From Deltaproteobacteria bacterium (GTDB lineage: Bacteria > Myxococcota_A > UBA796 > JAFGLY01), in assembly GCA_016927815.1 (NCBI GenBank), contig JAFGLY010000040.1:1-47734 (forward strand): a stretch of 47,734 bases of DNA, written 5' to 3'. The notes under the pieces are model-generated. The model had not been told where the DNA came from. It saw only the letters and a list, made by a program, of their open reading frames with translations, and searched no databases. The position numbers and the translations under genes are program-made. Positions 36,014 to 47,013 of this stretch are shown one piece after another. Numbering within the stretch: the stretch's first letter is position 1; every line of letters begins with the position of its first letter.

Positions 36014-36847
36014 TCACAGGTCGGCGCAGCAGCGGAAGCCGCGTGCGGAGGGATTCCAGTCCGGCACGAAGTCGCAGCGTTGGTTCTCCACCGAGTCGGC
36101 ACAGTTGTAGGCCCCGCCCTTGAGCACCGGCGTGGAGCCGTCCATCGTGTACTCCCAGAGGTTGCCGCTGATGTCGTACACGCCGTATTCGTTGACGCAA
36201 CCCGGGCTGCCTCCGGTGGTCCGGAGCCGGAAGACGCCCCCGCAGTCCCGCCAGCAGTAGGCGTACCTCTCCCCGTCCTCGCAGTGACACGTCTTCCGGC
36301 CGCCCTCGCAGTCGCATTGGGTATCGATCCCGTTGCAGGTCTCGGCCTCGTAGGTGTCACCGTAGGGGTAGACGCTGGCGTCGGGGCCCTGGCAGGCGGG
36401 GATCCACTCGGCGGTGGTGCACAGGCGCTTGCCCGCCGCGTTGCAGGCGGCCACCGCCAGCGTCGCGTCCGCGACCATCCACGGGAGGACCCCCTGCCGG
36501 GAGGTCGCACGGGAGGTGTCGGTTCCGAAGGAGGAAGCCGTGGCGTCGGGCCGGGAGGCCTCCCACCGGTCCATGCAGACCGTCGCGGAGATGGGGACCA
36601 TGCCGTCGGGGCAGGCATGGGCGGTGTCGTCCGGGGTGTCGCCGGTGTCCGGCGGCGAGGTGTCGATCGGGATGGTGGTGTCGCTCGTGTCGTCGACACA
36701 CTGGGAACCGGTGTCCGGACCCGAGTCGCCGGTCTCGCCCGGCGCGGTGTCGTCGATGGGGGGCCTGCAGGCCGCGACCAGGCCGGACGCCGCCACGGAC
36801 CCGCCAGCGAGCACCAACGCGATGCGCATCCAGTTCGTGGGTTCCAC
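36014..36847 (-). CDS. Lipoprotein with FGE/SUMF1-like (formylglycine-generating enzyme fold) domain
   Basis: This protein has 277 residues. GGAGG six bases before GTG 36847 decides the start. A signal with lipobox LVAAC (Cys27) follows, then a 50-residue Asp/Thr/Pro linker (TGDSGPDTGSQ, TSPPDTGDTPDDTA). Residues 85-277 show the FGE-sulfatase fold: CMDRWEASRPDA, LPWMVADATLAVAACNAAGKRLCTTAEW, NEYGVYDISGNLWEYT, and the end GGAYNC...ARGFRCCADL. In human FGE the active Cys pair follows GGSY; here only the first (Cys249) is kept and the partner position reads Glu254. Catalytic formylglycine formation is therefore doubtful; a binding or scaffold role is possible. About ten other Cys suggest disulfides. 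Confidence 0.82.
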   Translation of the reverse strand: MEPTNWMRIALVLAGGSVAASGLVAACRPPIDDTAPGETGDSGPDTGSQCVDDTSDTTIPIDTSPPDTGDTPDDTAHACPDGMVPISATVCMDRWEASRPDATASSFGTDTSRATSRQGVLPWMVADATLAVAACNAAGKRLCTTAEWIPACQGPDASVYPYGDTYEAETCNGIDTQCDCEGGRKTCHCEDGERYAYCWRDCGGVFRLRTTGGSPGCVNEYGVYDISGNLWEYTMDGSTPVLKGGAYNCADSVENQRCDFVPDWNPSARGFRCCADL

Positions 36848-37015: not shown

Positions 37016-39106
37016 ATGAGCCACGCCATCGTCCTCGTCAAGCAGGTCCCAGACGTCTCCAAGATTACGGACAACGCCTTCGATCCGGAAACGGGCAACC
37101 TCATGCGGGCCAATCTGCCCTGCGTCGTCAACGAGCTCGACGTCCAGGCACTGGCCTTCGCAGCCCGCATGCAGGCGCTGCAGACAGGGTCCGGGGGTCG
37201 GATCCTGGTGCTCACGATGGGCCCCCCCGCGGCCGAGGAGGCCTTGAGGTTCTGCCTGGCACGCGGGGCAGACCAGGCCGTGCTGCTCTCGGACCGGCTC
37301 CTGGGCGGGGCCGACACCTGGGCCACCGCCAATCCGCTCGCCTACGCCATCCGTCGCATCCAACGCGATCTGCTCGACGGCAGCAGCGACGTGTACGTGG
37401 TCGCGGGCATGCAGTCGGTGGACGGCGACACGGCCCAGGTGCCTGCCCAGGTGGCCGAGGAGCTTCAGGTGCCCTGCGTGGCCTATGCCACGGACGTGGA
37501 ACGGGTGGACGATCGACTCCGGTTCACCCGCATCATCTCGGGTGGCCGTCAGATCGTGGCACCCCTCCGGATGCCGGCCGTGATCACGGTGGCCTCGTAT
37601 GCGTTTCCGCTCTACCCCACGGTGGCTCGGACCCGGTGGGCGCAGCGCGCAGAGGTGGTGCGTTGGGGAGCGGCGGACGTCCAGGCCCGCTCCATCGGGT
37701 CCAAGGGCTCCAAGACGACGGTGATCCGCGTCTTCCCTCCGCCGAAGACGAGCCGCCGTTGCGAGGACGCCAGGGACGCCGCCGGCCTGGCACGGGCCCT
37801 GGAGACCTCCCGCCAGGTCACCAACGCTCCCACCGCGCGGTCCAACCGGCGGTACGTGCTGCCCCGCCACCGGGCCGATCCGCTCGACCGCTCCTTCGAA
37901 GGGCTCGAGAAGCAGGTGCAGGCGTTCAAGGACCTGGCCCGCATCCTCCGGGACCGAGGCGCGACGGACCTCGCCTCCATCCCGACCGACGTCCGGGAGC
38001 AGGTCCACGGCGAACTCGACGCGAGCGTCGGGAAGGCCGCCGTCGAGGGCATGATGCAGAACCTCTCCCAGGTGGACCCCTCCTACCGGGGGGACGTCTG
38101 GGTGGTGGCCGAGGAGCAGGGAGGTGAGATCCACCCCGCCACCTTCGAGCTCATCGGCAAGGCCCGCGACCTGGCGGACTCCCTCGGAGTGAAAGTCGGC
38201 ACGGTTCTCGCCGGGTCCGGGGTCGCCGACCACGCACGGCCGCTCATCGAAGCCGGCGCGGACACGGTGCACCTCCTGGACGATCCTCGTCTTAGCCCCT
38301 TCGATCCTGGGTTTCATCGCAAGGTGGTCTCCGCCGCCATCCTGCGACACGAGCCCCAGATCGTGCTCTTCGCGGCCACGCCCCAGGGACGGGTGCTCGC
38401 GCCCATGGTCTCCTACCGGTGCGAGTGCGGGCTCACCGCGGACTGCACGGGCCTCGACATCCTGGACAACACCCGCAGAGGCGAGGTCGGCATCCTCCAC
38501 CAGACCCGTCCTGCGCTCGGTGGAAACGTCATGGCCACCATCTGCACGAGAGGGTCCCGATCCCAGATGGCCACGGCGCGGCCGGGCGTGATGCAGCGCC
38601 TCCCCCCCGATCCGGCCCGCACCGGCGAGGTGTTCCACGAACCCGTGGATCTCCAGGAAGACGATCGACACATGGAGATCCTGTTCACCGAGGTGGGTAC
38701 GGCGCACGTGAACTTCGATGCCGATGTCATCGTGTCGGGCGGCCGAGGCCTGGGAAGCCGGGAGGCGTACGAGCGGCTCGTCGGCGACCTGTCGGGTGCC
38801 CTCGCCCGTCGGTTCGGCGTCACCGTGGAGCGCGGCGCCTCCCGTGCGGCCGTGGAGGAGGGCTTCTCCGACCGAAGCCACCAGGTCGGGCAGACGGGCA
38901 CCGCAGTGGGCCCGAAGATCTACGTGGCGCTCGGCATCTCCGGCGCCATCCAGCACATGATCGGAGTGGCCAACAGCCAGACCATCGTGGCCGTCAACCG
39001 CGATCCTCAGGCGCCCATCCTCAAGCAGTGCGACTACTACCTCGTGGGCTCCGTGGAGCAGATCGTCCCCGAGGTCGTCCGAGTGCTCGAAGGGGAGAAC
39101 CCGTGA
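37016..39106 (+). CDS. Electron transfer flavoprotein, beta and alpha subunits fused (EtfB-EtfA)
   Basis: This protein has 696 residues. Residues 1-250 are EtfB (IVLVKQVPDVSKITDNAFD, NELDVQALAFAARMQ, VAGMQSVDGDTAQVPAQVAE); it holds the AMP site. A linker with Arg/Pro and an amphipathic helical segment spans about 250-350. Residues 355-696 are EtfA: VVAEEQGGEIHPATFELIGKA, GLTADCTGLDI, and the FAD-binding end QVGQTGTAVGPKIYVALG (623-640) with SGAIQHMIG, NRDPQAPI and the rest of the normal alpha C-terminus. ETF carries electrons from acyl-CoA and related dehydrogenases to ETF:quinone oxidoreductase, encoded next. Subunits are normally separate chains. No frameshift is visible, so the fusion is real in this sequence. 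The etfB-first order agrees with usual operons. Confidence 0.95.
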   Translation: MSHAIVLVKQVPDVSKITDNAFDPETGNLMRANLPCVVNELDVQALAFAARMQALQTGSGGRILVLTMGPPAAEEALRFCLARGADQAVLLSDRLLGGADTWATANPLAYAIRRIQRDLLDGSSDVYVVAGMQSVDGDTAQVPAQVAEELQVPCVAYATDVERVDDRLRFTRIISGGRQIVAPLRMPAVITVASYAFPLYPTVARTRWAQRAEVVRWGAADVQARSIGSKGSKTTVIRVFPPPKTSRRCEDARDAAGLARALETSRQVTNAPTARSNRRYVLPRHRADPLDRSFEGLEKQVQAFKDLARILRDRGATDLASIPTDVREQVHGELDASVGKAAVEGMMQNLSQVDPSYRGDVWVVAEEQGGEIHPATFELIGKARDLADSLGVKVGTVLAGSGVADHARPLIEAGADTVHLLDDPRLSPFDPGFHRKVVSAAILRHEPQIVLFAATPQGRVLAPMVSYRCECGLTADCTGLDILDNTRRGEVGILHQTRPALGGNVMATICTRGSRSQMATARPGVMQRLPPDPARTGEVFHEPVDLQEDDRHMEILFTEVGTAHVNFDADVIVSGGRGLGSREAYERLVGDLSGALARRFGVTVERGASRAAVEEGFSDRSHQVGQTGTAVGPKIYVALGISGAIQHMIGVANSQTIVAVNRDPQAPILKQCDYYLVGSVEQIVPEVVRVLEGENP

Positions 39107-40770
39107 CCGTAGAACCCATCGTCCCGAACCCCGACCTCGTGGTGGTCGGCGCTGGCTGTGCCGGCCTGGCGGCCGCCATCGCCTTCAAGCGCGCCCGCCC
39201 CGAAGCTCACGTGGTCGTCCTCGAAAAGGCCGCCGGCCCCGGGTTCCACAACCTGTCCGGAGCCGTCCTGGAGGCCGGTCCGATCCACGCGCTCCTCGAC
39301 ATCGCGGATCCCAACTGGCGGGACACTCCCGCCGCTCGACACGTCCTGGGCCAGCGGGTGCGGCGGGACGACGTCCTGTTCTTCACGGACGCCCGCTCCG
39401 TGGTTTCCCTGAAGCCCGCGTTGAAGGCTGCCCGTTCGATGGGCCTCGGATTCGGAGGGCTGCTGCACGACGGTGACCTCATCGTGTCCGTCAGCCAGCT
39501 CACCGCCTGGCTCTCGGACCTGGCGACCCGGGCGGGCGTGGAGGTGCTCCACGGATTTCCCGTCCGCGACGTGATCCTTGACGAAAACGGACTCGCAACC
39601 GGCATCCGGACGATCGACCAGGGGCTGGACCACGAGCGCCGACCCCAGCCCAACTTCCTGCCCGGGGAGATCGTCCATGCGGGCGCCGTCGTGCTGGCGG
39701 AGGGCCCTCTGGGGTACGCCACCGAGGACTTCGTGGCCCGAGGCGGGCTCGTCCGGAACAACCCTCCGGTCTTCAGCGTCGGGATCAAGGAGATCGTCGA
39801 GGTCCCCGAGGAGCGCTACGCCAAGTTCGGCTCGGGCCGCGTGATGCACGCCCTCGGATGGCCTCTCTGGACACCGGTGGTCGGCCCGGCCATGTTCGGC
39901 GGCGGCATCCTGTACTCGATGGGCGCCCGGCGGATCGCGGTCGGGATCATCATCGGGGCCGACTGGAACTACCACGACTTCATCCCCCAGGACGCCTATG
40001 CCCGGTTCAAGGAGCACACGCTGGTGCAGCGGTTCATCGCGGGTGGAACGGTGGTGGAGGCCGGCGCCAAGATGATCCCCGAGGGGGGCTTCCACGCGCT
40101 CCCCCGCGACCCGGAGACGGGGGCCATCGGACGCAAGAACGTGGTGATCGTGGGGGATTCGGCCGGTTTCGTGAACGTGAACAAGATCAAGGGCCTCCAC
40201 AACGCCATCGCCTCCGGCCTCGCCGCAGGCAACACCGTGGCCGCCTCTCTCCACGCCCCGGCCGAGATCGCTCCGATCTACACAAGGGAATTGGAGGCGC
40301 AGGGCGTACTCCTCGAGATGAACGGCGCCCGCAACGTTCGACAGACGGTGGCCCGCCTGGGCAACCTGTGGGGCCTGCCCCTCTCGGCCGTCACCGGCCT
40401 GTTCCCACGCATCTCGGTGGAGCCCGATCGCGCCGCCATGACCCGCGAATCCTATTCCCTGAAGCTCAAGCGCCCCTTCGACAAGGATGCGTTCGTGGCC
40501 GCCGCCAAGGTGGAACACCGAGAGGGGCAGCCCATCCACTGCGAGGTGCTGGACCCGACCCTCTGCGCGACCACCTGCGCCGAGACCTTCGATCGTCCCT
40601 GCGTGAAGTTCTGCCCGGCGGGTGTCTACGAGGTCATCCAGGGCACGATGAAACCGGTCAATCCCACCAACTGCGTCCACTGCAAGACCTGCCAGAACAA
40701 GTGCCCCTACGACAACCTGCGCTGGCACCCGTTGGAAGGCGGAGGCGGTCCGAAATGGGAGGGCATGTAG
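39103..40770 (+). CDS. Electron transfer flavoprotein-ubiquinone oxidoreductase (ETF-QO)
   Basis: This protein has 555 residues. DLVVVGAGCAGLAAAIAFKRA (11-31) is the FAD dinucleotide fold. The middle has LPGEIVHAGAVVLAEGPLGY and the ubiquinone-site region HALGWPLW, GGGILYSMG. NVVIVGDSAGFVNVNKIKGLHNAI is the second FAD motif. The end is the membrane-facing [4Fe-4S] module: Cys in FCPAGVYE plus Cys524, Cys527, Cys530 (CVHCKTC) and an extra Cys534 before GGGGPKW. It oxidises reduced ETF and passes electrons to quinone. GTG 39103 overlaps the ETF stop (GTGA), so the two are cotranslated. Confidence 0.96.
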   Translation: MTVEPIVPNPDLVVVGAGCAGLAAAIAFKRARPEAHVVVLEKAAGPGFHNLSGAVLEAGPIHALLDIADPNWRDTPAARHVLGQRVRRDDVLFFTDARSVVSLKPALKAARSMGLGFGGLLHDGDLIVSVSQLTAWLSDLATRAGVEVLHGFPVRDVILDENGLATGIRTIDQGLDHERRPQPNFLPGEIVHAGAVVLAEGPLGYATEDFVARGGLVRNNPPVFSVGIKEIVEVPEERYAKFGSGRVMHALGWPLWTPVVGPAMFGGGILYSMGARRIAVGIIIGADWNYHDFIPQDAYARFKEHTLVQRFIAGGTVVEAGAKMIPEGGFHALPRDPETGAIGRKNVVIVGDSAGFVNVNKIKGLHNAIASGLAAGNTVAASLHAPAEIAPIYTRELEAQGVLLEMNGARNVRQTVARLGNLWGLPLSAVTGLFPRISVEPDRAAMTRESYSLKLKRPFDKDAFVAAAKVEHREGQPIHCEVLDPTLCATTCAETFDRPCVKFCPAGVYEVIQGTMKPVNPTNCVHCKTCQNKCPYDNLRWHPLEGGGGPKWEGM

Positions 40771-40793: not shown

Positions 40794-41661
40794 TGACGAC
40801 CGCACTCGCTGGCGTCGTGCCGGCGTCCGTCCGAGTGTAGTCGAGCGTGCTGCCCCTAAGCGAGTGCGGGACCAGGTAGACGGCCAGAGTCCCCAGGCCC
40901 ACGGCAAGCACGAGCATCCGCCGGCCGAGGCTCGCATCCACCCGCGGCCGGAGCGCCAGCGCCGCGACGAGCCAGCCCGTGAACAGGACGAGGGTCTTGG
41001 TGTCGGTGAGGTCGCCCCCGAGGGGCCAACCGGTCCAGAAGGCTCCGAACGCGTACTTCTGGACGACCGGCCCGAGCACCATTCCCCCCAGCGCGAGCAG
41101 GATCACCGTGGCCCAGGCCAGGCCCCGAAGCCCCCGGCCGCCAAGGGAGGCCTGGAGGATGGTGCGGCAGCCCACGACGAGGGCCAGGAACATGGCCAGG
41201 ACGTGGGGGACCAGGACCGCGGCGGGCACGGCTCCCTTGTAGCGGAGCACGGCGTTCCCACCGGGTGGGAGCGCCACGGTGGACGCTCCGGGCTGGGCGA
41301 GTTCGACGTGGTACTCGACCTTGCCCGCGGGCGGCTGCGTGGGGAGGCGCGCGCGCCGCCATCCGTCCTCGGCTTCCATGGGGACGCGGGCGAAGGCGTC
41401 GGCGGTGGGGTAGCGGCGCCAGACCAGGGTAGCCTCCACCCCCGGACCCGGGTCGGGCACGGCCACGCGGGCCTCGGTGCCCGACGTCTCACTGCGCGGA
41501 AGCCGCCAGGCGATCTCCACGCCGTTGGGCGCAACCCCCCGGCCCCGGGCGGGATGCGTGGGCCCCGTGCGACGCTGGTACCCCGCGAAGACCACCATGG
41601 CCGTGAAGGCCAACACCCAGAGCCCGGCGGAAACCCGCCGCGAGGAGGAGGACGGGGTCAT
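40783..41661 (-). CDS. Conserved membrane protein of unknown function, next to ccm operon
   Basis: This protein has 292 residues. One N-terminal TM helix (11-30) is followed by about 110 residues with an immunoglobulin/fibronectin-like beta pattern (VEIAWRLPRSETSGTEARV, VEATLVWRRYP, GKVEYHVEL). Four or five TM helices follow from about 140, including the conserved-looking block MVLGPVVQKYAFGAFWTGWP and GGDLTDTKT. I recall this GPxVQKYAFGxxWTGxPxGxDLTD block from uncharacterised membrane proteins of other phyla, but know no function. It is divergent from ccmA, so a role in the respiratory or cytochrome context is possible. ATG 41661 is the best start; there is no strong Shine-Dalgarno. Confidence 0.7.
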   Translation of the reverse strand: MTPSSSSRRVSAGLWVLAFTAMVVFAGYQRRTGPTHPARGRGVAPNGVEIAWRLPRSETSGTEARVAVPDPGPGVEATLVWRRYPTADAFARVPMEAEDGWRRARLPTQPPAGKVEYHVELAQPGASTVALPPGGNAVLRYKGAVPAAVLVPHVLAMFLALVVGCRTILQASLGGRGLRGLAWATVILLALGGMVLGPVVQKYAFGAFWTGWPLGGDLTDTKTLVLFTGWLVAALALRPRVDASLGRRMLVLAVGLGTLAVYLVPHSLRGSTLDYTRTDAGTTPASAVVTGQ

Positions 41662-41875
41662 GGACGGTTCACCGTCATCTCCCGCGTGGGTGCGGATCCG
41701 GGGCACCTCGGAAGGTCCCAGGTTCCGGAACGTACCCCGACCGGGCGAGAGCCGCCGTCTCGGACCCTCGCGGTTATCCTGGGCGCGCCCCACCCTGCCG
41801 GGCGAGCCGACGCCGCATCGCGAGGACACACGATGGACCGCCCCCACCCCGCTCCGATGGCCCGGAGAACGCCCG

Positions 41876-42565
41876 GTGCCTGAACCGGTGGTCCGAGCCC
41901 GAGATCTCGGCCGGCGCTTCGGCGGGCGCTGGGCGCTCGGACGCGTGGACCTGGACCTCCTCCAGGGGGAACGCCTGCTCCTGATGGGCCGGAACGGCGG
42001 GGGCAAGACCACGCTCCTGCGCCTCTTCTCCACGCTCCTGGCCCCGTCGCGCGGCACGGTCGCGATCTTCGGCCTCGATCCCGCCCGCGAGGCCTACCGC
42101 ATCCGCCGTAGGCTCGCCCTGCTCGCGCACCTGCCCTTCCTCTACGAGGATCTCTCGGGGCCCGACAACCTGCGCGTGGTGGCCCGCCTCGTGGGCCGGG
42201 CGGACGATCCCGCGCCCTGGCTGGCCCGTGTGGGTCTCGATCCACGGCCGGACCCGGTCCGCACCTGGTCCGCGGGGATGCGCAAGCGGCTCTCGTTCGC
42301 ACGCCTGCTGCTCCAGGAGCCGGAACTCGCGCTGATCGACGAGCCGTACGGCCAGCTGGATCCCGACGGCCACGCGTGGGTGGACGGCCTCCTCAAAGAG
42401 ATGGCCTCGGCCGGGACCACGGTGATCGTGGCCTCCCACCTCGTGGACCGCGCCTCGGCCCTCTGCCAGAGGGCGCTGTTGCTGCACGACGGGCTCCCCC
42501 GCTGGTCTGGCCCGTCGGACCAGGCGCCCCGCGCCTGGACGTGCTTCCAGGAGCGTGCGTCGTGA
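41876..42565 (+). CDS. ccmA: Heme exporter ATP-binding protein CcmA
   Basis: This protein has 229 residues. Walker A GRNGGGKTTLLRL, ABC signature SAGMRKRLSFARLL, Walker B LALIDEPY, and the H-loop SHLVD form an ABC ATPase. It powers release of holo-CcmE from the CcmBCD complex in cytochrome c maturation System I. GTG 41876 with GGAGA seven bases upstream is chosen, and its stop overlaps the ccmB start (GTGA). A weak -10 (TATCCT, 41775-41780) lies upstream. Confidence 0.92.
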   Translation: MPEPVVRARDLGRRFGGRWALGRVDLDLLQGERLLLMGRNGGGKTTLLRLFSTLLAPSRGTVAIFGLDPAREAYRIRRRLALLAHLPFLYEDLSGPDNLRVVARLVGRADDPAPWLARVGLDPRPDPVRTWSAGMRKRLSFARLLLQEPELALIDEPYGQLDPDGHAWVDGLLKEMASAGTTVIVASHLVDRASALCQRALLLHDGLPRWSGPSDQAPRAWTCFQERAS

Positions 42566-43263
42566 CCGGACCGCGTGGCGGTCGCGGCAAGGGGTCGGGG
42601 ACCCTCCTCCAGCTCGTCCGCAAGGATCTCCTCGTGGGATGGCACGGCCGAGCCCGCCTCGTGGGCCTGTCCACCTACGCCGTCACGCTGCTGCTCGTCT
42701 TCTCCTTCGCCCTCGGCCCGGATACCGCGACCCTGCACGACCACGCCTCTGCGTACGCCTGGGTGGCGCTCCTGTCGGCCTCCACGCTGCTCCTCGCCCA
42801 GTCGTTTCTCCAGGAGGTGGAAGGTGGGGCTCTGGAGGGCCTGCTCCTGTTGCCGGTGAGCCCCGTGGCCCTGTTCTACGCCAAGGCCCTGGCCAACCTC
42901 CTGCTGCTCCTGGTCCTCGCAGGCGTCCTGCTGCCACTCGGCGCGGTGCTCTTCGACGTCTCGCCCTCGGGCCCGCCGCTCGCACTCGCAGGCATCCTGG
43001 CGCTCGGCTGCGCGGGGCTGGTGGCGCCCGGCACGCTCTACGCTGCCCTCACCGCACGGGTGGCCTCTCAGCAGGTGCTCCTGCCCGTCCTGCTCTTCCC
43101 CCTGGTCGTGCCCCCGGTCCTGGCGTCCGTCAAGGCCACGGCGCTCCTCGTGGACGGCGACCCCATGGGCCAGTTGGGCGCCTGGGCGGGCCTGCTGGTC
43201 GCCTTCGACGTACTCTACTGGAGTCTGTGCGGCGTCCTCTTCGGACGGGTGCTCGAAGCATGA
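42562..43263 (+). CDS. ccmB: Heme exporter membrane protein CcmB
   Basis: This protein has 233 residues and about six TM helices (VTLLLVFSFAL, YAWVALLSASTLLLAQ, ALANLLLLLVLAGVLLPLG and others). FLQEVEGGALEGLLLLPVSPVALFYAKA is the cytoplasmic coupling loop seen in CcmB, which contacts the ATPase CcmA. LARVASQQVLLPVLLFPLVVP-type helix follows. Its GTG overlaps ccmA and its TGA overlaps the ccmC ATG. It forms the permease of the CcmABCD complex. Confidence 0.92.
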   Translation: MTGPRGGRGKGSGTLLQLVRKDLLVGWHGRARLVGLSTYAVTLLLVFSFALGPDTATLHDHASAYAWVALLSASTLLLAQSFLQEVEGGALEGLLLLPVSPVALFYAKALANLLLLLVLAGVLLPLGAVLFDVSPSGPPLALAGILALGCAGLVAPGTLYAALTARVASQQVLLPVLLFPLVVPPVLASVKATALLVDGDPMGQLGAWAGLLVAFDVLYWSLCGVLFGRVLEA

Positions 43264-43955
43264 GGTGGACCCTCCTCCTCGGGATCCTCGCCCTCGTGGC
43301 CCTGACGGCGGGGCACGGGATCGGTCTGTTCGCCTCCCCGCCGGACGCAGCCATGGGTCAGACGGTCCGCATCCTCTACCTCCATGTGCCCAGCGCGTGG
43401 ACGGCCATGCTCGCCTTCACCGTGGCGGCGGTGGCCGCGGTGGGGGTGCTCTGGAGCGGTCGCCCTGGTTGGGACGCGCTCCTCGAGGGCAGCGTGGAGG
43501 TGGGCGTGGTGTTCTGCGGCATGCTGCTGGTCCAGGGGTCGATCTGGGCGCGTCCGACGTGGAGCGTCTGGTGGACCTGGGATCCGCGGCTCACCACCAC
43601 CGCCGTCATGATGATGGCCTTCCTGGGCATTCTCCTGCTCCGACGCCTGGTAGACGAGCCCGGGCGCCGCGCGACCGCGTCCGCGGTGGCCACGATCGTC
43701 TCGTACGTGGACGTACCGGTGGTCTACTTCTCCGTCGAGTGGTGGAGCGCGGCGCACCAGGGGTTCTCCTCCGCCCGCACGGTGGACGAGGGGATGCGCC
43801 TGCCGCTCTGGGTCTCCCTCCTGGGCACCGTGCTCCTCGGTGCGACGCTCGTACTGTGGCGGACCCGCATCGCCGCCGAGGCCCGGCGCCGCGAGGAGGA
43901 CGCGCCGGATCTCCCGCCCGCACCGCCCCCCCTCGACCTGGAGATCGCGCCATGA
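43260..43955 (+). CDS. ccmC: Heme-handling protein CcmC
   Basis: This protein has 231 residues and six TM helices. RILYLHVPSAWTAML contains the first heme-ligand His, and IWARPTWSVWWTWDPRLTT is the WWD tryptophan-rich domain that presents heme, with VDVPVVYFSVEWW and WSAAHQG as the second His region. CcmC loads heme onto CcmE. The C-terminal Glu/Asp/Pro tail is species-specific. ATG shares ATGA with both neighbours. Confidence 0.95.
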   Translation: MRWTLLLGILALVALTAGHGIGLFASPPDAAMGQTVRILYLHVPSAWTAMLAFTVAAVAAVGVLWSGRPGWDALLEGSVEVGVVFCGMLLVQGSIWARPTWSVWWTWDPRLTTTAVMMMAFLGILLLRRLVDEPGRRATASAVATIVSYVDVPVVYFSVEWWSAAHQGFSSARTVDEGMRLPLWVSLLGTVLLGATLVLWRTRIAAEARRREEDAPDLPPAPPPLDLEIAP

Positions 43956-44071
43956 GCGGCAGCATCGAGGGCGGCTGGTCCTACGTGGTCGCAGCCTACG
44001 CCTTCTCCTGGATCGCGTGGGGGATTTATGCCGTGTCGCTCGCCCTGCGCAGCCGCCGGAGGTCTCGGTGA
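43952..44071 (+). CDS. ccmD: Small membrane protein CcmD
   Basis: This protein has only 39 residues: MSGSIEGGWSYVV, then AAYAFSWIAWGIYAVSLAL, then RSRRRSR. The single TM helix with Tyr/Ala at the start and a basic tail is the CcmD plan (WxYVxxAYxxxWxxxxxYxxxLxxR). It stabilises CcmC and helps release holo-CcmE. Its position, with ATGA to ccmC and GTGA to ccmE, supports the call despite the length. Confidence 0.88.
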   Translation: MSGSIEGGWSYVVAAYAFSWIAWGIYAVSLALRSRRRSR

Positions 44072-44514
44072 CCGGCACCCGGAGCCGCCGGCTCGCGCTG
44101 GGGATCTCGCTCCTCGTCGCCCTGGCCGCCCTGGGTCTGCTGGCCTCCGGACTCCTCGGCCGCAACATCGTCTACTACTGGACCCCCACCCAGCTCCTGG
44201 ACGCGGGCGACCAGGCCCAGGGCGCGCGCATCCGGCTCGGCGGCCGGGTCGCGATGGGGTCGATCGCGTTCGACGAGGCCACGGCCGAGCTCCGGTTTCG
44301 GCTCCACGACGACTCCCGGGAGGTCTCGGTCCGCGCGGTCGGCACGCCACCCGAGATGTTCCGCGAGGGCATCGGTGCGGTGGTCGAGGGCACGCTCGCT
44401 CGAGACGGCGTGTTCGAGGCCCGACGCCTCCTGGTGAAGCACGACAACCGCTACCGGGCTCCCGTGGAGGGGCGGCACTCGGGCGACCCGTTCGAGAGCG
44501 TGGAGGACCTGTGA
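44068..44514 (+). CDS. ccmE: Cytochrome c maturation protein CcmE (heme chaperone)
   Basis: This protein has 148 residues. A signal-anchor helix (9-30) is followed by an OB-fold core (GARIRLGGRVAMGSIAF, LRFRLHDDSREVSVRAVG, EMFREGIGAVVEGTL). LLVKHDNRYRAP (121-132) carries the covalent heme His125 and Tyr129, as in the HxxxY motif. It takes heme from CcmC and gives it to CcmF/H. GGAGG before GTG 44068. The gap to ccmF is 31 bp. Confidence 0.95.
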   Translation: MTGTRSRRLALGISLLVALAALGLLASGLLGRNIVYYWTPTQLLDAGDQAQGARIRLGGRVAMGSIAFDEATAELRFRLHDDSREVSVRAVGTPPEMFREGIGAVVEGTLARDGVFEARRLLVKHDNRYRAPVEGRHSGDPFESVEDL

Positions 44515-44545
44515 TTCGCGTGTCCCGCCCGCGCCCGGAGGCCCG

Positions 44546-46497
<1,952 letters not shown>

Positions 46498-46501
<4 letters not shown>

Positions 46502-47013
46502 ACTGGAAAGTCCTCCTGGTCGCCCTGATCGTCATCGTGCCGCTCGTGTGGGTGCTGGCCTCCGCTTTCGGGCACGATCCCCACGCCCTGCCCTCCACGC
46601 TCGAGGGCCGACCCGCAGCGACGTTCTCGCTTCAGGATCTCGACGGCCGGGAGGTGTCGCTCGCCTCCTACGAGGGCCGACCCGTGGTCCTCAACTTCTG
46701 GTCCACCTGGTGCGTGCCCTGTGTGCGTGAGCACGCGGTGCTCCAGGCCGCAGCCCGCGCCGAGGGACCGGACGGCGCCGTGTTCCTGGGCGTCCTGTAC
46801 GGGGACGAGCCCGCACGGGCGCGCGCCTGGGTGGCCCGCGCCGGGAGCGCCTACCCCACGGTGGTGGATCCCACCGGATCCCTGATCGTGGACTACGGCG
46901 TAGGGGGGGTTCCCGAGACCTTCTTCCTCGACCGCCGTCACGTCGTCGCGGCCAAGGTCACCGGCCCGCTCGACGTCGAGACCCTGGCCCGCCACCTGGA
47001 GGCCATCCGGTGA
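46498..47013 (+). CDS. Thioredoxin-like protein CcmG/DsbE
   Basis: This protein has 171 residues. An N-terminal membrane anchor (4-24) is followed by the thioredoxin fold: TFSLQDLDGREVSLASYEG, VVLNFWSTWCVPC with the redox Cys72/Cys75, and GVGGVPETFFLD with the cis-Pro. It reduces the apocytochrome CXXCH disulfide through CcmH. ATG shares ATGA with ccmF and its stop overlaps ccmH. Confidence 0.93.

Follow-up and report, generated by a model that had tools for sequence, protein, structure and literature searches.

A two-gene operon was analysed on contig JAFGLY010000040.1 of the Deltaproteobacteria bacterium assembly GCA_016927815.1, the window being the whole stretch of 47,734 nucleotides. Its first gene encodes both subunits of an electron transfer flavoprotein (ETF), EtfB and EtfA, in a single polypeptide, and the second encodes a quinone oxidoreductase (QO) of the ETF:quinone oxidoreductase (ETF-QO) type (Table 1). 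The fused frame runs from an ATG at 37016 over 697 codons, i.e. 696 residues plus a TGA stop (39104-39106), and is free of internal stops, the region between residues 250 and 350 included. Pfam detects two ETF-domain stretches and ETF_alpha in the product. Since the third-position GC content remains high from the EtfB part (0.87) through the linker (0.94) to the EtfA part (0.87), the linker is coding, and the recurrence of this fused frame in all 80 loci kept from other genomes rules out chance or a sequencing error. The single EtfB-EtfA polypeptide proposed in a preliminary description of this DNA is thus confirmed, as is its coupling to the ETF-QO gene by an exact GTGA overlap. As a special feature the overlap was discarded: it is ordinary, and just 12 of 77 relatives overlap with the starts as called here.

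Table 1. Coordinates of the operon and of its sequence and model features
Feature	Position	Strand	Basis or remark
EtfB (beta) part, residues 1-246	37016..37753	+	Pfam ETF; PDB matches to bifurcating beta subunits; beta tree
Linker, residues 247-356	37754..38083	+	Without known family; conservation, models, domain and fold searches
EtfA (alpha) part, residues 357-696	38084..39103	+	Pfam; PDB matches; alpha tree
Arg31	37106..37108	+	Aligned with Thermotoga maritima R38 (RXGV motif; RANL in the window protein)
DGDTAQV, residues 136-142	37421..37441	+	Motif also in bifurcating beta subunits and FixA
Very-low-confidence linker stretch, residues 269-276	37820..37843	+	pLDDT <50
Three predicted linker helices, residues 298-313, 324-338 and 340-349	37907..38062	+	AlphaFold2, block pLDDT ~75-89
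Arg498	38507..38509	+	Aligned with T. maritima R140 (RPXFGG motif; RPALGG in the window protein)
Stop/start overlap GTGA	39103..39106	+	Frames of the fused gene and the QO gene
ETF-QO type quinone oxidoreductase, 555 residues	39103..40770	+	GTG start; Pfam; PDB match
Cys-rich stretch, Cys 488, 492, 500, 504, 524, 527, 530 and 534	40564..40704	+	As in T. maritima EtfX

Affiliation of the fused flavoprotein

Judged by sequence, both halves of the fusion group with electron-bifurcating and not with canonical ETFs, a point which the preliminary description had missed and which changes the likely function of the operon. The EtfB part yields 146, 132, 122, 113, and 90 bits with five bifurcating beta subunits from the PDB, and canonical chains reach at most 49 bits. 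For the EtfA part, scores of 262 to 182 bits to bifurcating PDB chains stand against at most 102 to canonical ones; 3ih5, an EtfA fragment of unstated type, gives 111 bits. The beta and alpha trees combine 14 fused proteins (out of 81) with ten canonical rows, two FixAB pairs, and bifurcating references (five for beta, three for alpha). In both trees the fusions form one clade within the side that holds the bifurcating and FixAB proteins, apart from the ten canonical rows, with support values of 100/99. The reference set is small, the program warned of some long branches, and the trees go no further than assigning the fusions to this side.

Residue conservation, counted over 55 aligned fusions, points in the same direction. 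Arg31, DGDTAQV, and Arg498 are invariant in 55/55, and none of the ten canonical rows has an Arg at position 31. Canonical ETFs, such as that of Paracoccus (1EFP), also lack the bifurcating-type motifs. The EtfA part consists of domain I followed by the flavin adenine dinucleotide (FAD)-binding domain II, with a boundary estimated near residue 560. An insertion of about five residues just ahead of TRPALGG (38450-38530 in the window) was seen in the EtfA part of 14/14 aligned fusions and in none of 15 other rows.

The host genome carries a second ETF, a separate canonical EtfB-EtfA pair (L121, 119-1894, minus strand; G000 contig C143), which served as a control. Its EtfB scored 167 and 148 bits with canonical chains versus 140. 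The outcome for its EtfA was less clear, the best match being the bifurcating 5ol2_A (189 bits) followed by a canonical chain (182 bits).

The quinone oxidoreductase partner

In the second gene product both Fer4_ETF_QO and ETFQO_UQ-bd exceed the Pfam cut-off, and the alignment with pig ETF-QO (2gmh, 212 bits) takes in the whole QO (residues 3-555). All eight Cys residues of T. maritima EtfX, a protein that holds two [4Fe-4S] clusters according to PMC10734219, are aligned with Cys residues in the C-terminal part of the QO. At the place of the eighth (Cys534) an Asp is found in pig 2gmh and in 4/4 canonical ETF-QOs from relatives (39 other genomes had a match, and four of these proteins were read). 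The CxxCxxCxxxC pattern that includes this Cys occurs in 70 of 72 complete QO frames from the neighbourhoods of other fused genes, the exceptions being a broken (L088) and a misread (L064) frame; a stricter Cys pattern is found in 69/72, with L111 as the third miss. Five further frames, cut by contig ends, lie outside the 72. The protein is therefore an ETF-QO type enzyme predicted to hold a second [4Fe-4S] cluster.

Distribution of the fusion and its neighbours

A contig scan found 172 relatives, of which the best 80 were kept. Every one of these 80 loci has the fused form, with 53-63% identity along almost all of the protein; in L089 and L110 a contig end truncates the gene. Hence, the linker is not new. 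Fused EtfBA proteins are also found in Sulfolobales. Planctomycete labels account for 67 of the 80 loci, and the other 13 bear labels such as Bacteroidales, Spirochaetes, Latescibacterota, Balneolaceae, and UBP9, some of which may stem from mislabelled bins. The fused form is common to many bacteria of anaerobic type, and 8 of 11 other carriers tested lack a match to the COX1 family. An ETF-QO homologue on the same strand lies within 77/80 loci, its start, as called here, being located between -20 and +100 bases from the fused gene in 67 of the 77. Among the three loci without it, L050 and L089 end at a contig end, and L046 has none in nearly 6 kb downstream.

As a guide to function the neighbouring genes were discarded: beyond ETF and QO, only a corrinoid protein (32/80) and a sigma-70-like protein (27/80) recur in at least 20 of the 80 loci, and neither stands beside the window operon. 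The corrinoid protein, of methyltransferase type, has its gene upstream of the fused ETF gene and divergent from it (L036, L049, L062, and 29 others). Reactivation of corrinoids requires low-potential electrons, so a link to the fused ETF is possible.

Energy metabolism of the host

The host genome has no match to COX1 (haem-copper oxidase), which is found in 53 of the 58 genomes searched, the host among them. The other four genomes without it are 73-89% complete, and among the 27 high-quality genomes (host and relatives) the host is the sole exception, 26 being positive. Matches to POR-gamma number five in the host, six in G001, and one each in G002, G003, and G005. For RnfC-type proteins the host shows one partial match over the cut-off. 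This gene content fits, and does not prove, a role of the operon in anaerobic energy metabolism.

After the operon follows a set of cytochrome c maturation (ccm) genes (41477-47013, plus strand) for an ABC transporter, CcmB, a CcmC-type protein, CcmE, CcmF, and a thioredoxin-like protein.

Proposed function and competing explanations

Taken together, the PDB scores, the trees, the kept Arg31, DGDTAQV, and Arg498, the pairing with a QO, its eighth Cys, and a host without COX1 and with five POR-gamma matches support the view that the operon probably (at a probability of roughly 0.65) encodes a two-polypeptide, membrane-associated complex. By analogy with EtfABCX (PMC10734219 and PMC10765413), it would couple the oxidation of reduced nicotinamide adenine dinucleotide (NADH) to the reduction of ferredoxin and quinone. 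NADH would reduce the bifurcating FAD in the fused EtfB-EtfA core, from where one electron would go to ferredoxin or another low-potential carrier. The second electron would reach (mena)quinone via the FAD of the mobile EtfA domain, the two predicted [4Fe-4S] clusters, and the QO-bound FAD; the complex might also run in reverse. The analysis demonstrates the fusion, its conserved association with a QO, the position in the trees, the retained key residues, the eight-Cys pattern, and a patchy distribution of horizontal type, whereas the cofactors, NADH and ferredoxin as partners, the direction, and any role of the linker are what we infer.

With EtfABCX of T. maritima (PDB 7KOE; PMC10734219) the operon has in common relatives of bifurcating-type EtfA and EtfB, a partner on the quinone side, and a ferredoxin part with eight Cys residues, which in the operon is predicted to hold two clusters. 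The T. maritima complex differs in being composed of four polypeptides, with a quinone part of EtfC type, intact RXGV and GXXSPTXV motifs, and no long linker between EtfB and EtfA. Rhizobial FixABCX systems (Rhizobium etli pB, Paraburkholderia phenoliruptrix pSYM) have the same order of beta, alpha, and quinone part, and their FixA and FixB share 36-39% identity with the corresponding parts of the fusion. They are encoded by separate fixA, fixB, fixC, and fixX genes beside nif genes and have no linker domain, and R. etli FixX has fewer Cys residues than T. maritima EtfX. Unlike the four-subunit layout of EtfABCX and FixABCX, with its EtfC/FixC-type quinone part, the operon has two genes. No account of a fused bifurcating EtfBA paired with an ETF-QO turned up in the literature listings and abstracts searched, which did not include the main classification paper (10.1128/JB.00440-17) and do not establish absence from print. 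No mention of a fusion was found in PMC6085437.

Several observations weigh against a bifurcating, EtfABCX-like complex. RXGV (in most sequences) and GXXSPTXV are given as group-2 motifs in PMC10734219, and both are altered in the beta part. In the former, the Arg is kept and GV replaced, RxxL being found in 14/14 fusions shown; the latter reads GSKGSKTTV, with Lys or Arg in place of Pro family-wide and the rest kept. RPXFGG of the alpha part has Leu for Phe, with the critical Arg retained. Conservation of this Arg498 is weak evidence, because the R140-type Arg is present in all five ETF groups (PMC10734219). As two motifs are altered and this Arg is common to the five groups, the fused ETF is best described as a branch attached to group 2, not as a proven member. 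Further, the QO is nearer to pig ETF-QO than to T. maritima EtfC, with which it aligns partially at 59 bits. A COX1-family match above the cut-off is present in three of the 11 other carriers examined, which means that the fusion is not confined to strict anaerobes, and the ccm genes adjoining the operon suggest respiration of some kind in the host.

Two alternative functions were considered. In the first, the operon would be an ordinary ETF:ETF-QO pair by which acyl-CoA dehydrogenases or enzymes like them hand their electrons to quinone, and the fusion would merely fix the stoichiometry. The ETF-QO type of the partner agrees with this, and so does its being the only Fer4_ETF_QO match in the host genome: as no second ETF-QO match exists, the canonical ETF on C143 may also need, and be served by, the window QO. 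The explanation is nevertheless unlikely, as the fused ETF groups with bifurcating and not with canonical ETFs, and no acyl-CoA dehydrogenase is named among the families recurring in at least five of the 80 neighbourhoods (for two of these families Pfam gave nothing, and one cluster lay outside the scan). In the second, a bifurcating-type ETF would have lost bifurcation and turned into a simple NADH (or NADPH):quinone oxidoreductase, with the altered RXGV and SPTXV motifs as marks of the loss. Two group-2 motifs are indeed changed family-wide, and T. maritima variants at these places lowered, and did not abolish, ferredoxin reduction (PMC10734219). Against this, the critical Arg of T. maritima is kept without exception and the host has several POR-type ferredoxin enzymes, which makes the loss improbable as well.

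If the complex is of the bifurcating type, a two-protein system may be easier to produce than the four-subunit EtfABCX, and among poorly cultured planctomycetes the fused gene might mark out genomes with NADH-ferredoxin-quinone coupling.

The linker between EtfB and EtfA

The linker had been described as new, Arg/Pro-rich, and helical. Its novelty did not hold up: its length of ~110 residues is about the same across the 80 loci, and its core is ordered and moderately conserved. The enrichment in Arg and Pro applies to residues 247-290 (30% versus 15% in the whole protein), and the helical character reappears in AlphaFold2 models. On average, the commonest residue reaches a frequency of 0.54 within residues 251-356 versus 0.80 in EtfB and 0.77 in each of the two EtfA parts. 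Within the 55 aligned fusions Tyr280 and Arg286 are invariant, and Leu282, Pro283, Arg292, Glu295, Leu307, Met346, and Pro355 nearly so.

The fused protein, modelled with a 55-row alignment, reached a mean predicted local distance difference test score (pLDDT) of 86 and a predicted template modelling score (pTM) of 0.85. Judged by its position, linker helix 255-267 would be the helix with which EtfB proteins usually end. The three helices that follow were recovered when the linker was modelled alone (pLDDT 79, pTM 0.61). The window linker has no Pfam match, and the 55 members gave scattered weak ones only; neither a PDB sequence match below E 0.13 nor a Foldseek match of the linker-only model below E 3.6 was obtained. 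The linker can thus be regarded as conserved and partly ordered; that it lacks a family or fold match does not establish a new fold. A derivation from remnants of the FixA and FixB ends was rejected: FixA does extend further at its C-terminus, and FixB has ~30 additional residues at its N-terminus, but no clear counterpart of the linker core (~278-350) was seen in the two Fix pairs aligned.

According to PMC10765413, the mobile domain of T. maritima has two tethers, an alpha-chain loop and the beta-chain C-terminal peptide (the alpha chain being named EtfB and the beta chain EtfA there). Since the latter peptide tethers the shuttle domain and the linker begins just after it, the restraint of the mobile FAD domain proposed earlier is plausible by analogy. 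The linker would join the EtfB C-terminal peptide to the start of EtfA domain I as a third connection; it would hold the two subunits together and may restrict how far the FAD domain swings. The compact model was discarded as proof of a locked state. The modelled EtfA part fits Acidaminococcus fermentans 4kpu_A at 3.1 A over 325 residues, T. maritima 7koe_B at 6.7 A over 317, and Clostridioides difficile 5ol2_A at 9.0 A over 312, and human ETF 2a1u_A matches equally well (2.7 A over 310 residues), so that compactness is no proof of anything about the linker. By the account of PMC10765413, experiments have yet to identify a B-state. Electron bifurcation in ETFs relies on a mobile FAD domain. 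What controls the swing of this domain is still to be learned, and a family in which its tether is joined to the core would allow a direct test of whether coupling responds to restraint.

Origin of the operon

At E <=1e-120, the fusion was detected in 1 of 377 genomes sampled from the host phylum, i.e. in the host itself, and in 11 of 294 genomes from the phylum of one planctomycete carrier. In the phylum of carrier G383, 53 of 296 genomes pass a looser threshold of 1e-80, and a full-length match is found in G383 only. The polynucleotide phosphorylase (PNPase) encoded on the contig shares 68% identity with that of a same-family genome, 61-66% with full-length proteins of order members, and 54% with a partial match in G005, versus 44-49% with eight carriers from elsewhere. 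Horizontal gain into a native chromosome is therefore likely. Contamination by a contig foreign to the genome, which the single occurrence in the phylum would also explain, is highly improbable in view of these PNPase identities. The rbfA-truB-rpsO-pnp block of G001 was considered as an empty site and rejected: ETF, QO, and ccm genes are absent within the 16 kb taken, and the flank differs, so that no clean empty site is available. A fuller scenario, in which a cassette of a single-chain bifurcating ETF, with the ordered linker as a third tether gating the FAD swing from its bifurcating to its quinone-reducing position, and a two-cluster ETF-QO would have been gained horizontally by a lineage giving up oxygen respiration, is tentative and less likely than not.

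Other features of the window

No Rfam match at gathering score was found in the window. Divergently from the operon, a protein with an FGE-sulfatase domain and an Asp/Thr-rich N-terminal part is encoded at 36014-36847 on the minus strand.

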